Shown here in pieces: positions 8,330-52,291 of a DNA stretch of 56,037 bases. Source of the stretch: Priapulus caudatus (lineage: Eukaryota; Priapulida; Priapulimorpha; Priapulimorphida; Priapulidae); assembly GCF_000485595.1 (NCBI RefSeq), contig NW_014577892.1:1-56037 (forward strand). Reading direction: 5' to 3'. The notes under the pieces were generated by a model. That model saw only the letters and a program-made list of their open reading frames with translations. It searched no databases and was not told the DNA's origin. The translations under genes were made by a program, and so were the position numbers. The stretch's first letter is position 1. The number at the start of each line of letters is the position of its first letter.

Positions 8330-9375
8330 GTGAGTCCAGATCGTTGACTCGTTACCCGTTGAAAGAAGCCCACGCACAACAGTAATTTCAGTGTAATTTT
8401 AACGGGTGACTCAGGGGTCAAGAAACTTGACTCCTGCTAATTCTATGCTCTCTTGACTCAAAAACGGGAGCTTGTAGTTCTTTATATTAATAGAAGTGTC
8501 TTGACTCAAAAACGGGAGCTTGTAGCTCTTTATGCTAACAGAAGCGTCTTGACTCAACTAGTAAATATTTTATTAGTCAACACGACCAGTAAATTCAGCC
8601 GAGTGATGAGCCTAGGGCTCTTTCAGCTCCTAACCTGGTAGTGTCACAACCGGCGAACGACTCCTCGCGAGTCCTACGTACAGCTATATTTATATACAAT
8701 TTCGTTAGATCAACAGGGATCACTGGAAAACGATACTATTACATCTGTATTATTCACGTCTGTTATACCATATCACATATCGGTTTTATTGCCCACTATC
8801 ATTTAACCAGATGCACTATTTAAGATTTATACGATATTATAGTTTAAATACAAGAATCTTCATTTAAAACAATATAATTATGCTTCCGGTTCAGTTATCC
8901 TTGCGAGCCCCGCGATCACGCGACTATCGGTTACCACGCAAATGACAACAACTTTCAGCATTTCCAGCGCGTCAAGACTGAGTCAGTGCGTCAAGCTACA
9001 TTATTGCAATTATCTTGACTCATTGACTCAAATTACAGCATTTCCGTACATATACAGTGTTATCCAACGACAAGATGAACTATAACCAGCCAACAACCCA
9101 TTTAATGAACAGATCGTGTTGCTACAGTACTTTACAATACTACGGTGAGAATTACAGCTACCCCTATATACACGCGATGATTCTACAGTAGGCTGAGTAT
9201 TGACCCGTTGGCCGACCGCCCAACTGCTAATAATGTAATATAAGAAATCACGGTTACTGTAGTTTACTTCTAACTATTTATAGTGACAGTTAAATTTACT
9301 ACTGATCCCTCATTAACCAGGACTAGAGTAAGAGACACAAATATATATTAGTGCTGGAAGAGCAAAGTCGTTACA
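8330..9375 (-). mobile_element. Gypsy 3' LTR (outer end approximate)
   Basis: Read on the minus strand, a polypurine tract (AAGGAGGGGAGAG, 9376-9388) is followed directly by TGTAACGACTTTGC, a typical LTR start. The region to the left is non-coding. It contains two tandem copies of a unit beginning TCTTGACTCAAAAACGGGAG (8449-8553) and further scattered TTGACTC motifs. The outer end was not located: no second LTR copy or target duplication was seen, so the left coordinate is a guess. It belongs with the minus-strand ORFs at 9741-13428. Confidence 0.6.
8449..8553 (+). repeat. Tandem ~50-bp duplication inside the LTR
   Basis: Two units each start TCTTGACTCAAAAACGGGAG and then read CTTGTAG.TCTTTAT, with a partial third start. 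A few substitutions separate them. Probably LTR enhancer-type sequence, but the function is unknown. Confidence 0.85.
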
Positions 9376-11769: not shown

Positions 11770-13428
11770 CTAAAGATCCAAACGTTGGACAGGTTTTCTC
11801 ACGCGTCCACTACGCCGAGGCACAAGACCTGTGTCCAACCCTTGCTCTTGTTCTGCCCAGCTATCGATGTCTGCCAAGGGATCTTCTTGCTCAAAGCCGT
11901 CGTATTCTCTGTCATCCCCTGTGCATCCCTGACAGCCTGCCTTGCTATGCTGCTGGTCCTCGTTTCCCGTTCCTCCTGTATTTTCAGCAGCATGGCTCCC
12001 CTGATCCCCTCCATCGTAGACAGCCAACGAATCCAGGTGAACCATTCGGTCCTTCCCATTCGTTTTAATGCTTATCTGAGCTAATTCAGGTGATGGCCTT
12101 CGCGTGATAAGGCACGGCCCTAGCCAACCTTTGTTTAGTTTTTCTTTAGCTTTCGGAGGGTAATAGTACCACACCAAATCCCCTTCTTTGAATATTGTTT
12201 CTTTTACCGTTTTATTATACCCCTTCCTTTGACGCGCCGCAGCTGCCTTAAGCATTGTCGCAGCAAACTGGTAAGCTTCCGCCATGACTCGTCTTATCCA
12301 TTCCACATATTCTATGGGACATTCGTAGTCCTCTGTAGTAGGCGTAGGGCCCACTATGATATCCAGTGGCACACTTATTTCCCTACCGAACATTAGGAGG
12401 TTAGGGCTACAACCCGTGCTGTCCTGCTTTGTGGCCCGGTATGCCATTAATAAGTACGGCAGATGATCATCCCAGTCATCTCTGTGCTCACCCACATAAA
12501 CGGTCAACATGTTCTGAAGGGTCCTGTTAAAGCGTTCTACTAGTCCGTCTGACTGAGGGTGGTAAGGAGTTGTCCTCGACTGCTGTATGTCGAGCAGCTG
12601 ACAGACGCCTTTAAACAACTTGGACTCAAAATCCGGTCCTTGGTCCGTATGAATTTGCCTCGGCACTCCGAATCGGCACACAAACTCAATGACAAGGCAA
12701 TCCGCTGCTGTCATCGCTTGCTGATTCGGCAATGCATACGCTTCCACCCACTTAGAAAAATAGTCTGCCACTACCATAATGTAGACGTTCCCCTTCTTTG
12801 TCTGTGGTAGGGGTCCGACGAAGTCAATCGCGATCTTCTCGAAAGGCGGCGCGCCCACTCTTGTTTGCTTGAGCCGAGCATGATGAGCCGGTCTCTTCCT
12901 GTTCCTAGCGCAGGCGTCACAAGCTTTGCACCACCTTTCTACATCGTTTCTATAGCCAGGCCAGTAGAAACGTTGCCTTACCATATGCATGGTTTTCGCA
13001 ACGCCTAAATGTCCAGCCGTTCTTTCCTTGTGCAAGTGAGTGAGTATCTTGCTCCTTAAGTTTCTTGGGACAACCAACTGTTTTCTTGTAATACTTGGTG
13101 TTGCTGGACTTAGATAATTCCTGTACAGGAGGTCACCCACGACCTCTAGCTCGTCGTACTGACTCCAGTATGCCTTAAATTCCGTACTCTTGTCCTCTAC
13201 TTCATCGTAGGATGTCCTACAGTCACCCGACTTTTTCATTCCGATAATATGCATAATGTCAATTTCCTTCTGCCATTCGCGAATCTCATCGTGAGTCCAC
13301 TGGTCCATCCAGTTAGTTGCTATCTCCGTTGCAGGTCCGGCCTGCCCTGCAGTGTGGCTTCTCACCACGTTAACTCTCAGAAGTTTGGGCGGTAGGTTGT
13401 GTTTGTCTCTTTATTTTTCCTATTACGG
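11770..13428 (-). CDS. Gypsy (Ty3-like) integrase, C-terminal part of Pol
   Basis: An open minus-strand frame ends at 11770. Its first Met is at 13368, with a few codons open upstream. Order: an H2C2 zinc domain (HLHKERTAGH ... CKACDAC); the catalytic core with Asp in KIAIDFVGPL, Asp in QIHTDQGPDF and Glu in GLVERFNRTL, so the DDE triad is complete; a C-terminal GDLVWYYYPPKAKEK/LGPCLI chromo-/SH3-like segment; then a tail rich in Asp and Glu ending RRSGRVRKPVQRL. Protease, reverse transcriptase and RNase H are missing: sequence to the right of 13430 is unrelated. The element is thus 5'-truncated but its integrase is unbroken. Confidence 0.93.
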
Positions 13429-42493: not shown

Positions 42494-43770
42494 AAAAGCG
42501 GACAAATCGCAACTAATAAATATTCTGTCGAAAGATGCATTCCAGCCAGATTTTCCTATCAGTGACATCGTTAAAACATGTACCATTATTGATGGTATGG
42601 CAGTGGTACAATCCATTGGGAAACCGACAACAGCAGTTACGTTTGGTGACTTAGCAGATGTGTTTGTGAACTGTGTGAAGTCACACGGTAGAAATTCAGA
42701 CAGGATAGATATTATATTTGATCGATACGAGGAGAATTCTATTAAAGAAGGTACACGAGAAAGACGACGATCAGGGACAAAACAAATTAGGCGGTTGATT
42801 ACAGGTAAAGACACAAAACTCCAGACATTAATTTTATCACTCTCGCTGAAAACAAAGCCGATCTTGCTCGTTTCTTGTCAGAGGAATTGATCATCTCTAG
42901 TGAACTTGGCGGTAAAGAGATAATTGTGTGTGGAGGGTTTACGGAAATAACGAAAACGATATGTACCTCGGAACGTGATGTGTCAACACTTTGAGCAAAC
43001 CACGAGGAGGCTGACACGCGAATTGTTCTTCATGCGTGCGATGCTGCAAACCACGGATATAAGCGATTGTAGTTTGCAGGGATACTGATGTGTTAATGAT
43101 GCTAACAGTGTTTTCGGCAAAGTTGTCGCAGGAGGTTTGGATGAATTAAGGTCGGAACTTCAAAATCTCCTTGGATGATAAGAGTCCATGACATTGCAAT
43201 AAACAACAACACTCGAAAGGGATTGTTAGCTTTTCATGCGCTAACGGGAAGTGACACGACGAGTCAGTTTGCAGGAATTTCTAAAAACGCTGCATGGAAA
43301 GTATTTATTGAAGATCCAGATCGCATTCATGGGTTGGAACAGAATCTACCACTATTACCTAGATTAATTGCTATCATCAGTGGAAGCATTTATATGTAAA
43401 CTGTATGATCCAACGACAACATTGGTAGTCATACAGGAGATTCGCTTGTCGAAGTTCTTCTAATGCAAGACGAATATTGACTATTTGCCACCAACGAAAG
43501 ACGCACTGATACTACATTGTCATCGAGCCCACTATCAGAGCCTCATTTGGAACCAGTGTGTAGATAGTACTCAGTGCATTCCTTCAGCATTTGACTGCGG
43601 TTGGTATATGCAGGATGGCATTCTGAAACCACGGCTCATGACACTGAATTCATTTTGTGCCAATACTATTGCAATAAAGACATGTGGCTGTAGTAAGGAC
43701 GGACCTTGTTGCCGTACACGTAGCTGTACATGTACCAAAAACAATAGAAATATTGTCATCAGTGGCGTTT
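42486..43770 (+). pseudogene. C-terminal half of a FEN1/XPG-like nuclease family protein, several lesions
   Basis: Plus-strand pieces in order: ADKSQLINILSKDAF; CTIIDGMAVVQSIG (first Asp motif); ADVFVNCVKSHG; DRIDIIFDRYEENSIKEGTR; after a frameshift near 42815 LGGKEIIVCGGF; ANHEEADTRIVLHACDAANH (Glu/Asp motif, preceded by TGA); CRDTDVLMMLTVFSAKL; RKGLLAFHALTGSDTTSQFA followed by GISKNAAWKVF; LPPTKDALILHCHRAHYQSL; and a Cys-rich end CGCSKDGPCCRTRSCTCTKN. ID-G, EEAD, DTD and G-x-DT..GI.K match in order the active-site and helix-hairpin motifs of FEN1-type nucleases (EAEA, EDMD, GCDY..GIG). At least three stops or frameshifts make it inactive. No termini of an element were found around it. Confidence 0.6.
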
Positions 43771-46312: not shown

Positions 46313-47490
46313 ATATACAACATTAAACATATATAGATAGTAAGATAGTAGATGGTAAGATAGTACAAATGTTTTCTAAGGAGAACTACAGCTACCCCTA
46401 TATACACGCATTGATTGAACGATGATTCTTGACGTTGCAGCAGAAGATTGAAGTCCGTGAATGCTGGCAAAGTTGCCTGGTAGAAGAGCAAACGAATCTC
46501 GGTTATTGGGTCGGAGAATCGTTTATTCAGGCGCTTGAATCGAGCTTGGCTTTCGTCTGGAAAAAAAATCACATTACCGTGATATATATCCTGCACTGCT
46601 ACAATAACGTGTAGATAGTTATGGTTTTTATTTAACAACAAGGTTGGATTATGATAGAAAGTATTAAACATTGATATACATTTATTTTTATCTGTACCAA
46701 CATAAAACAGTAAATTATATCTATTATTTTTTGATGAATTAAAATGTACTTACTGTTTGATTTGAAGTAGCTTGCAAGTGACGTGTACAATTTCAATGTG
46801 CGGTTGACTGCCTTTTTCGGACTCAGCCATCTTGCTTGCACATAGTTCACCACTTCCATGTACTGAGAGTCAGAAAACTGGCAAAACTCTGTTGAAGTAA
46901 ACATATGAGATGAAAAATTACAGGGATTTTTCTTATATGTATCATCTTTTTTGTCAGAGGGCTCTGATTCTATTAACATTAATCACTGAATGTAGTATTG
47001 TATTAAGCAGCATTATTTCAAAACGTACAAACAGTTTTGTAGAATTCTGTTCCAAGCTTACTCTCAAGTCCTGCCTTCCTCTTATTGCTTCCTTTGAACC
47101 AATAGGCCAGATCTACCGCCAGATCTTCCATATCAAAGTTTGTCAGCTGTAACACGAGATTGAGAAGAAATACATTTATATTTCATAATTTTCATCTCAT
47201 TGTCAAAGTTAATCATTGTCAAATAAGTAAAGAACAATTCATGTTTTTAGCTGTGGCAATAAAATTATAGTTATTGACATGCTTAGTGATTTAACTTATA
47301 AAAGAGCAGAACAAAAACAACTTGTGTCTTGACTTAATGGAATTCCTGATTCCCATGTTAACGCTTGCGTTGTCTAGGGATAGAGCAATACAGTTTTGCC
47401 AGGGAATCTGATTGTCTTCAAAAACCTGGTCCATCTTGTTAAATATGGTTTGCGCGGTGGCAGCAGCTGTACCGGTCGTTGTACACATGT

Positions 47491-48398
47491 TAGTCCGGGA
47501 GCCATGGGGTCATACCCTGCACTGAGAGTTAAAGTTTTTTTCTTTGCTGATTTTTGTAGACTAGGTGTTGGTCTTTACTTTCTAAGTGGATGACCACCCG
47601 TCACCCTTGAGCAAATTTTTATATTAACCTTTTTGTGTTGAGAGCGTCAACTCAAAAATTGGCGAAAAATTAGGGGTGGGGAAAACAAAAAGTCTACTTG
47701 ATCTGTTGTTTTTAAAGCTAATGGAATCATGTGACCACTGCAAAATGGTTGGTATTTAAGAGCTCTTTCTAATGATAGGTGAATAATAAGGTCACTAGAG
47801 GTCAAAAGGTCACAAATGTTTGACCTTCCTCGAAATCTTAAATATTGCTTTTAGCACCCCTTCCTTGGTCAAGAACAGGCTATAATGGTGCTTTTTACCC
47901 CTAAATTTGTTCAAGGAGATCCCCTGCTATCATTTTAAACCGCCCATGTTCAAATATGTTGAATGTTCACCAACCTATTACAAAAGAAAGACAAGTGATG
48001 TGCTAAAATAGCTGTTTTTATTACCCAAAAGTTGATAACGCTTACAGTAATGAGATCTGTCGATCTAGAGCAACCGTTGCTCCACCACAGGGTCAAAGGT
48101 CATACAAGTACACAGTTAACTGCAGTCAGTTGTTTCGATGAACTGACTGGCATCATTTTAAATAACCAACCCATAGGTAGCTCCATTATATTTCGTTTAT
48201 TTAAAAATGAATTCTCATTAATACTTGATATTTTCATAAACTAGGCATGCTCTATGTCAAATGTTGGCACTCGTCTACTATTGTCTCAGGCGAAATAAAG
48301 AATATGGTAGTCCCATTTTTGGTAAGAAGTGTTTCAGTTCCAACTAACCATCAGCCCTCTCTAGAACAACCAATGCTGTAGCAAGCACAAAACATTGT
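47491..48398 (+). repeat. Left terminal inverted repeat
   Basis: About 908 bp. Landmarks: TAGTCCGGGAGCC, ACCCTGCACTGAGAGTTA, GGATGACCACCCGTCACCCT, AAGAGCTCTTTCTAATGATA, CAGTCAGTTGTTTCGATGAA, CTAACCATCAGCCCTCTCTA and CACAAAACATTGT. The last part overlaps the 3' end of the FEN-like frame. Confidence 0.92.
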
Positions 48399-49850
48399 GC
48401 ATGGTAAGTGAACAACATCTTTGCATGAACACTTTCGTGCATGGACGATCACTAGAACAACCACATTTCATCAAGCGAAGGATATATTCTGGGGCACAAA
48501 AGGCATTTTCTGGAAGCAGGACAGGTGTGAGTGTCTTTGTGTCCTTTTCCTTCATCCATCCAAATTCCTCTGGGTCCAACAGAGGGGGATTGTTTTCCTG
48601 AAGTGATCGCCAAAGAATGGCTTGGTAGTGTGCACGTTTTAAATTCTTTAAGAATGCTTTAGTCATAGGTGGCAGTGAACATAGTTTGGGAGACGAGGTG
48701 ACGCCCTTGCCATTTTTAGCAGCCCAAAGCTGAATGCGAACCTGTGACATGTCCACAGCATTTTTCTTGCCATAGCAAGCTGATACGAATGTTGTGGCTT
48801 GGTTGTAGACATCAGCAAGTTCAGCAGTTACGTCACCAACTGCAGACAAGGTGTGGCCAGCCATAAGGACTGATTACAGTTTCTTTACCAATTCCGAAGT
48901 ATGTGGCAACCGTGTCGCAACCTGAAAGGGCGTGAGCTTGAAGGAGATTTTGAGCGATCATCTGGTGTTTTTTTGCTGTCTCACCAATGTCAATCACCGT
49001 CCTACCTTTCACTGGTGATTCCATGATGACTGGGACTTTGAGGTCACTTCGATCATAATAGTAGACTAGTAGGACAAACACATCTGTGTCATCAGACATC
49101 ACTGTAATGGATTTCCCTTCTCTACTGCACCGCAACACCTGTTGGACAATAATATTGTCTGCTTCCTCATGGGTCGTTGTGAGGTCATGACGTCTTCTGA
49201 TCCCATCATTTTGAATTTCAAGTGGAGTGTTGCTTTCCGCTGTGATAACTAGCTTGTCTATGCCGGTGCTGTTTGTGTGGAAGATCCTGTCCCGAGACAG
49301 TTCATCATAGATGAAACATAATCCTCAACTGTACCAGCCTCGAGACAGTTCATCACCCAAAACAAAGCAGAACTGTCTATCACCATCATATCAGTCATGC
49401 CTGTTTTTCTACTCGACTCTTCTTTAGCTGTGACTTGTTTGTGGCAATCCTCATCCCATCAGTGGTAAACATCGATGTTGGCACTGGTGCAAGTTCATGG
49501 GAGAGAACATGCTTGATATCAATATCCTGCGAACTGGATAGCAGACCAATGACCCGTGCATAAATGGCATTTAAGTCCGTAATCTTGTTGTCCCCAATGG
49601 ATACTCCCTGCTTCCTCACAGTCATTGTAACAACCTTCTTGGGAATGGTTTCATAAAACCCGTCTGGCCATTTTGTTTCAAATTCTTCTGTTTCTTTCCA
49701 ATATGAACGGAGTTCTGGACATTGACCTCAGCTTTGCCAATTTGCCCAGTTAATTTACGATATTCACTATCTCTTCTGGGTGGTTTGCAGGGTCCATGGG
49801 GTCAATGCACATCTCTAGCTTTCTGCGGATAACAATGTTTTGTGCATGCT
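48361..49850 (-). pseudogene. FEN1/XPG-like nuclease family gene inside the TIR element, broken
   Basis: Minus-strand order: LEMCIDPMDPANHPEEIVNI; after shifts SYWKETEEFETKWPDGFYE, AIYARVIGLLSSSQDIDIKH and HELAPVPTSMFTTDGMRI; MVIDSSALFWVMNCLEAGTV (first Asp motif); KLVITAESNTPLEI; THEEADNIIVQQVLRCSREG; VMSDDTDVFVLLVYYYD; LLQAHALSGCDTVATYFGIG; LPPMTKAFLKNLKRAHYQAI; and CGCSSDRPC near the end. EEAD, DDTD and GCDT..FGIGK correspond in order to the catalytic acidic pairs and helix-hairpin of FEN1-type nucleases. The stretch between the first Asp motif and KLVITAE is much shorter than in the 42486-43770 copy, and a 14-bp direct repeat marks this spot. Several frameshifts make it inactive. Start not determined. 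Confidence 0.65.
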
Positions 49851-50802
49851 ACAGCATTGATTGTTCTAGAGAGGGCTGATGGTTAGGAACTGAAACACTT
49901 CTTACCAAAAATAGGACTACCATATTCTTTATTTCGCCCGAGACAACAGTAGACGAGTGCCAACATTTGACATAGAGCATGCCTAGTTTATGAAAAGATC
50001 AAGTATTAATGAGAATTTTTTTAAATAAACGAAATATAATGGAACTACATATGGGCTGGTTATTTAAAATGATGCCAGTCAGTTCATCGAAACAACTGAC
50101 TGCAGTTAACTGTGTGCTTGTATGGCCTTTGACCCTGTAAGTTTGGCAAAATATGCCACAATCTAGGACTAAGCCTCTTGACTTTCCCCATTGCAATATG
50201 TGATGGAAAAATGGTTGCTCTAGATCAACAGATCTGATTAATGTAAGAGTTATCAACATTTGGGTAATAAAAACAGCTATTTTAGCACATCACTTGTCTT
50301 TCTTTTGTAATAGGTTGGTCAACATTCAACATATTTGAACATGGGTGGTTTAAAATGATAGCAGGGCATCTCCTTGAACAAATTTAGGGGTAAAAAGCAC
50401 CATTAGAGCCTGTTCTTGTCCAATGCAGGGGTGCTAAAAGCAATATTCAAGATTTCGAGGAAGGTCAAAAATTGGTGACCTTTTGACCTCTAGTGACCTC
50501 ATTATTCAACTATCATTAGAAAGAGCTCTTAAATACCAACATTTTGAGTGGTCACATGATCCATTAGCTTTAAAAACAACAGATCTAGTAGACTTTTTGT
50601 TTTCCCCACCCCTAATTTTTCGCCAATTTTTGAGTTGACGCACTCAACACAAAAGGGTTAATACAGAAAATTGCTCAAGGGTGACGGGTGGTCATCCACC
50701 TAGAAAGTGAAGACCAACACCTAGTCTACAAGAATCAGCAAAGAAAAAAACTAACTCTCAGTGCAGGGTTCCGCCCAAAATCGGGGTTTGGCTCCCGGAC
50801 TA
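49831..50802 (-). repeat. Right terminal inverted repeat
   Basis: About 972 bp, reverse complement of 47491-48398 with scattered substitutions. It has extra sequence around 50140-50215 (GTTTGGCAAAATATGCCACA and following) absent from the left arm, and a different 20-bp stretch next to the terminal TAGTCCGGGAGCC. Confidence 0.92.
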
Positions 50803-52291
50803 TGTCAAGAAATCGATAGACTACCCCATGGTTAATGTCAAAAATCTTGACTGTAATTGGGTTCATTTTCTCCAAGCCTGAATTAAAGACAGAAAAAACA
50901 TTGTATGAGTTTCAAGAATAGAACATTCAACATCCCTAATATAATCTAGTTACTTGAAAACTATCTTTAGAGTACATTTCTCCTTTGTAGTTGGACTTAT
51001 TCTTCAACACTTTTCATAATTAAAGGTATGTTTAATAGGTTGACTTTTAGTGGTGAGAATGATATGGTTTGAATAAGATTTTTTTTTCTTAACATGTCAA
51101 TGTTTGGGTAGTATCAATTTTTGTTTTCTTATTTTTCATGAAGGCTCATTTGATTTATGATATTGTGTTACATCACTTCAAAGCTGAAATAGACATAATC
51201 TGTAAAGTTACCAGTATCATTTGACCATCTGTCGACAAGGAAAACGGCTGCTCTTGCAACTGTTTCACCAGCTGTCTGTGGTAATATGGAGCTAAGGCCC
51301 GATTGATGATACAGGATGTTTTTGTCCTTGCTGATCTGTATCCTGTAGCAACAGATGAGTCAGGGAAGCACTCCTTCATGAGGGGGCTGAATTGATCGGC
51401 AAATGCCAGGGGCACGTTGTGCTGCACCATTGTCATTGCCACTTTCACTTCTGCTCTGCGGATCTGAAAAAGATGAACCGATGGACATCCTGTCTTATTA
51501 TCAGTGGGTATAGGTTTAAATATTATCACTGACTAAATTTTCTTATAATTCAATGACAAATTTCCATCAAATATTTGGGTTAACTGCAATGAACTGGGAC
51601 CAAACTTTTTAATATTTCCGTGTCTTTTTGAAGGATAATTAATATAATATAATCTTTAGGATATGTCTCACCCTTTATGCTCATATTTTTGTTTGAATTT
51701 TTATTTCTGTTAATCTAAAGCACAATGATTTTGTAAGGTGTCAAATCCACTTGAAGCCAAATGCTCAAGGCGCACTTGTGCAATATTTTCGCTCACCATT
51801 TTGAGGGCGTCAAAATATGATTTCATATTCATTTATTTCCATGACCAATTCCTGCAAGAATTGTGAACGAAATTAGATAAAATAATTATTATAAATCAAT
51901 GTTAATAGATACTTGCCTTGGTCTCTGAGCTTGACATTTCCTTGTTACCAGTTTGAACAGTTAAGTGAGTTATTCCCCGTGTTGTTTTTCTTAACCTCTC
52001 CTCCTTGTGGCCTTTGCTTGAGATGTGGCGCTTGATGTCAAATAGACCTTGGTGAGCACATGACTCCTGGCCGCAAATATTGCATCGGAAGTGGGCAGCT
52101 GTGGTCCCCATTGTTGTGAAGGGCCATATTTCAGCCCATTGTTTCTTGAAAGAAGAGTTGTAGGTTGCTGGACCTTGTTTAACCTTTGACTTGGCACTGC
52201 TAACCTTGGTTTTTTTAACAACCACCTGAGTGTTGTCACTATCAGTGTCGCTGCCTGTATCCATCCCCTGTGTCTCATCTTGTTGTAACAT

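Follow-up and report, generated by a model that had tools for sequence, protein, structure and literature searches.

A FEN1-like nuclease gene between long inverted arms

Does an element that carries a FEN1-like nuclease gene and no DDE transposase belong to a transposon group of its own, or is it the remnant of a known one? The question is raised by an element in a 56,037-nucleotide stretch of Priapulus caudatus DNA (contig NW_014577892.1; the whole stretch is referred to as the window). A first-pass annotation had described this element as a nuclease gene between inverted repeats and had proposed that the nuclease mobilizes a group of DNA transposons lacking a DDE transposase. This DDE-free transposon type is not supported: in full-length relatives of the protein, a predicted DDE-type domain forms part of the polypeptide. 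The window element is probably a shortened, decaying derivative of a known DNA transposon type and not a new kind, and the reading that we favor with considerable confidence is that of a non-autonomous derivative of an AcademX-type transposon, formed by deletion and inverted duplication.

The stretch between 47491 and 50802 is a genuine mobile element. It starts with TAGTCCGGGAGCC at 47491 and closes with GGCTCCCGGACTA ending at 50802, which are exact 13-bp inverted termini. Its two arms measure 908 and 971 bp; when aligned, they match at 849 of 898 bases (94.5%), and of the 83 gap columns 63 form one block. The exact termini and the inverted repeats of about 0.9 kb described previously were thus confirmed. 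When the whole window was scanned for inverted pairs of at least 60 nt, a single further pair of 66 nt was detected besides these arms. The sequence TGT is present on either side of the element, as annotated, while the duplication ATGT, proposed as an alternative, requires the final A of the right terminus to be assigned to the target. When the flanks were fused with a single TGT, an open minus-strand frame across the insertion point was obtained (...NHGVVYRFLDMCTTTGTAAATAQ...), and the element therefore represents a true insertion. The disrupted open-frame relic in which it lies (47294-47487 and 50806-50890, minus strand) resembles, as we assume, a hAT transposase; a Pfam search of its two pieces returned no family.

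The gene is the 3' half of a transposase-nuclease gene

Protein searches were performed with a read-through of the window gene (251 proteins found) and with the longer relative P0013 (314 found among 7,993 scored candidates), and the best 120 of each were listed, giving 209 distinct proteins in total. The sources named among the relatives listed with the read-through include fish, pearl oyster, crab, sea spider, coral and hydrozoan, in agreement with the earlier view that the family is widespread in invertebrates and fish. Many relatives listed with P0013 are about 1,460 amino acids long. At least 1,000 amino acids are reached by 54 of the 209, and 51 of these 54 cover both a putative DDE region and the nuclease, while P0158, P0182 and P0190 do not contain both halves.

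The full-length relatives are predicted to be a DDE transposase fused to a FEN1-like nuclease and a CXC domain: a Cys-rich N-terminal part precedes the transposase, which contains a helical insertion, and the FEN1/XPG-like nuclease and the C-terminal CXC domain follow. The N-terminal half of relative P0205 was modeled as a DDE transposase similar to those of the P element, Hermes and RAG1, and an RNase H-like fold with three acidic residues is predicted for the full-length relatives. In the model of relative P0127, the C-terminal half matches the structures of Exo1, FEN1 and XPG, with 8-14% identity; the acidic pairs and the helix-hairpin of the FEN1 fold were found on this relative and not on the broken window gene. 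These matches support the annotation of a FEN1/XPG-type nuclease. A Pfam scan gave no XPG match above the family cut-off, and comparison of the family profile with the sequences of solved structures gave no match at E ≤ 10. According to alignments A1 (20 sequences) and A3 (60 sequences), the residues conserved in the N-terminal half are D435, D608, GGMH637, E742 and E813 (numbering of relative P0122, also used below), and those in the nuclease are D1043, D1084, E1184-E1185-D1187, D1210-D1211-D1213, G1267-D1269 and GIGK1276-1279, followed by nine conserved cysteines at 1419-1452.

The window gene contains the EEAD, DDTD and GCDT..FGIGK motifs noted before. Its coding region lies on the minus strand, is broken into several frames instead of forming a single open one, and lacks residues ~1067-1131. 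The DDE transposase domain is absent from the window copy, and the element is accordingly at most a non-autonomous derivative and not an autonomous AcademX member. This agrees in part with the alternative offered by the first-pass annotation, a passenger gene in a non-autonomous element: the element is non-autonomous, but the gene is native to the transposon, whose 3' coding half it represents, and not a foreign passenger. The innermost part of the right arm carries C-terminal codons in inverted orientation, which match residues 1440-1454 of P0140 at 10 of 15 residues (E 0.001), with weaker matches to P0001 (E 0.027), P0122 (E 0.71) and P0126 (E 0.99).

Copies of the element share one junction

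A search of the 385-Mb assembly with the terminal 100 bp, as the first-pass annotation had suggested, yielded 26 matches. Apart from the two ends of the window element itself, these comprise 24 matches distributed over 20 other places; every one of these places was inspected, and some are interrupted by contig ends. The nuclease core continues into the inverted right arm at 11 of the 20 places, and both arms are at least partly present in 10 of these 11, L027 being cut near a contig end. One arm with a partial core is found at three places (L013, L019 and L021) and an arm alone at six (L015, L017, L018, L020, L023 and L024). Comparison of the first 885 residues of 17 relatives with the 20 other places revealed no DDE half between the arms; at L026, a separate DDE and nuclease relic adjoins the element. 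In all 12 copies compared, window included, codon ~886 meets the identical inverted 3' sequence. This common junction, together with the inverted 3' codons in the window arm, indicates that the long arms arose in part by inverted duplication of the 3' end, in a single founder event. Perfect 3-bp target-site duplications flank two of the six two-ended copies, namely the window copy (TGT) and L010 (GAT). An excess of one-base insertions was observed in L010, L011, L012, L021, L022, L025, L027 and L028, as if these contigs were poorly polished, and not in the window copy, L009, L014 and L016.

The genome also harbors full-length elements with related ends

At least 43 stretches were returned when this genome was searched at the protein level, nuclease-only copies among them. 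L040 contains residues 32-1448 between 462-bp inverted repeats and L041 residues 1-1454 between 397-bp inverted repeats, which in both cases end before the coding region; L041 measures ~5.7 kb between its repeat ends, and L042 contains residues 5-1454. The three are 24-50% identical to P0122, and none of them is the direct parent of the window element. The right end of L041 and the left end of L042 read TAGTCCGGTTGCC, the two ends of L040 TAGTCTGGCGGCA and TAGTCTAGTTGCC, and TAGTC..G..GCC is common to the ends of the full-length elements and the window element. Moreover, CACCCTTG(A/G)GCA lies ~110 bp inward in each arm of the window element, at each end of L040, at the right end of L041 and at the left end of L042. 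As a yardstick for chance, the 13-mer is found in the 56-kb window at two places with up to two mismatches, presumably the ends of the element itself, and at eight with up to three. Full-length relatives with a transposase between the same inverted repeats, which the first-pass annotation had named as evidence against its proposal, are in substance present, except that the identical 13-bp terminus was not matched. L040 is additionally enclosed by an outer inverted-repeat pair at 965-1213 and 8800-9118.

A gutted derivative, presumably moved in trans

The AcademX label is inferred from architecture and duplication length, and the following scenario is proposed. The founder would have lost the 5' part of the gene (codons 1 to ~885, with the entire transposase domain) and acquired in its place a copy of the 3' end in inverted orientation, leaving the nuclease and CXC half and extending native inverted repeats of ~0.4 kb to ~0.9 kb. 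Such a founder could have originated, for example, by template switching while an excision gap was repaired. It was then presumably copied several times by the transposase of full-length elements in trans: protein made elsewhere would cut TAGTCCGG-type ends and insert the element with a 3-bp target duplication. The full-length elements would recognize the same kind of ends, and the nuclease-half element would ride along. As for the nuclease in the full-length protein, we can only guess at a role in end trimming or second-strand processing.

Several observations weigh against this scenario. Among the 209 listed relatives, 155 are shorter than 1,000 amino acids; the first residue lies at 886 or later in 62, and 21 of ~670-790 amino acids (e.g., P0027, P0042 and P0052) start near residues 770-800, just within the end of the DDE domain. 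The shorter relatives are, in our view, partial gene models or exon-wise frames, although some may instead be nuclease-only elements or separate genes. The two-ended copies L009, L011, L012 and L028 show no clear duplication, and the long open frame through the nuclease retained in L014 means that some copies may give rise to a protein product. The exact TAGTCCGGGAGCC terminus was not encountered in any full-length element; the ends observed read TAGTCCGGTTGCC or are more diverged, and the direct parent was therefore not identified. The left terminus of L041 is decayed, and L042 was compared at its left end, its right end lying beyond the stretch examined.

It is very improbable that the FEN1-like nuclease alone mobilizes a self-sufficient group without a DDE transposase. 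A multi-copy family with just the nuclease half does exist, the cores of its four cleanest copies agree at 95-98%, the L014 frame is open across the nuclease, and many listed relatives are of nuclease-half length; yet the longest relatives carry the DDE half within the same protein, the same genome harbors DDE and nuclease elements with related ends, and the common junction cuts into the coding region. In addition, the differences between copies show no codon-position bias in any of the 36 pairs compared; this is a weak test, as decay after insertion and sequencing errors would look alike. A two-component system, in which the nuclease-only element makes a nuclease and CXC protein that cooperates or competes with the full-length protein in trans, is somewhat less improbable but still unlikely. 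The majority sequence of nine copies gives a nearly complete nuclease and CXC frame with a possible start methionine at residue ~933, and the open frame of L014 points in the same direction. On the other hand, several frame breaks affect both the window copy and L009, and L016 shifts frame ahead of its C-terminus; the even codon-position differences argue likewise against a protein product of the copies and say nothing about the founder. There is a similarly small chance that the founder itself still produced a FEN1-like nuclease ending in a DNA-binding CXC tail and that its copies are partners or parasites of the full-length elements, in which case end processing and strand transfer could come from different copies. 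The core of L014 (C647) also contains a duplicated segment carrying one N, probably an assembly artefact.

It is also unlikely that the autonomous element natively has inverted repeats of 0.9 kb and that the C-terminal codons simply fall within them. In favor of this reading, no direct parent was found, and the outer part of the arms has motifs in common with the repeats native to L040 and L041. Those repeats, however, are only 0.46 and 0.40 kb long and end short of the coding region, whereas the right window arm has inverted 3' codons joined directly to codon ~886. A deletion and inverted-duplication derivative hence remains the explanation that we prefer.

Features of the element and other relics in the window

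Table 1. Positions of the element and its parts in the window
Feature	Position	Strand	Remark
Target-site duplication, left (TGT)	47488..47490	.	joined flanks give open frame
Target-site duplication, right (TGT)	50803..50805	.	pairs with left copy
Entire element, probable non-autonomous AcademX-type derivative	47491..50802	-	gene on minus strand
Left arm, 3' end of element; innermost ~38 bp are coding-region end	47491..48398	-	
Right arm: subterminal bases unlike left end, then inverted copy of 3' region	49832..50802	+	
Gene relic, residues ~886-1454 of ~1,460-residue full-length protein	48360..49830	-	several broken frames
FEN1/XPG-like nuclease segment with HEEAD, DDTD, GCDT..GIGK	48836..49324	-	fold predicted via relative P0127
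C-terminal Cys-rich segment (CXC, tesmin/TSO1-like), frame-shifted	48360..48440	-	
C-terminal codons, inverted, at inner end of right arm	49826..49870	+	
Founder junction, codon ~886 abutted by inverted 3' sequence	49790..49880	-	12/12 copies compared

A second, distantly related relic of a FEN1-like and Cys-rich gene is located at 42501-43751 on the plus strand (tblastn with P0175, E 5e-11), and the closest of its listed relatives, with 89% identity, comes from Pycnogonum litorale. No long inverted repeats were found around this relic. Two of its relatives, P0282 and P0321, have a DUF6589-like stretch near the N-terminus that scores just under the Pfam cut-off. Elsewhere in the window, a 546-residue open frame at 11770-13410 on the minus strand reads like what we take to be a retrotransposon integrase.

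Implications and comparison with known systems

Some of the unnamed, widespread animal proteins labeled "Tesmin/TSO1-like CXC domain" are likely pieces of transposon proteins with a DDE and a FEN1-like part. The inverted duplication of a 3' end is one route to long inverted repeats, and the fusion raises the question of what part a flap-type nuclease plays in DDE transposition.

Among known systems, AcademX of the Academ superfamily (Kojima 2020, cited in PMC10045372) is similar in being a DDE-class DNA transposon, as are the full-length relatives, with an encoded nuclease, which we presume to be XPG-type. The window copy differs in having lost the transposase half and gained the inverted 3'-end duplication; that genome also contains elements with related ends in which the DDE transposase is present. 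According to Kojima (PMC10045372), target duplications are 3-4 bp in AcademX and 9-10 bp in AcademH, which belongs to the same superfamily, and these lengths are related to the encoded nuclease and helicase. The 3-bp duplications of the window copy and L010 fall within the AcademX range, and none of 9-10 bp was seen among the six two-ended copies. Similarly, Pfam listed no helicase family at E ≤ 0.1 in the six full-length relatives scanned. The mean length of curated bivalve Academ elements, 5,565 bp according to PMC10294476, is close to the ~5.7 kb of L041. The P element, hAT elements (Hermes) and RAG1 recombinases resemble the family in the predicted fold of the N-terminal half of P0205, from which the family departs by its additional FEN1-like and CXC domains. 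Finally, FEN1, Exo1 and XPG (Rad2) share with the C-terminal half of the family the predicted fold and the acidic residues.
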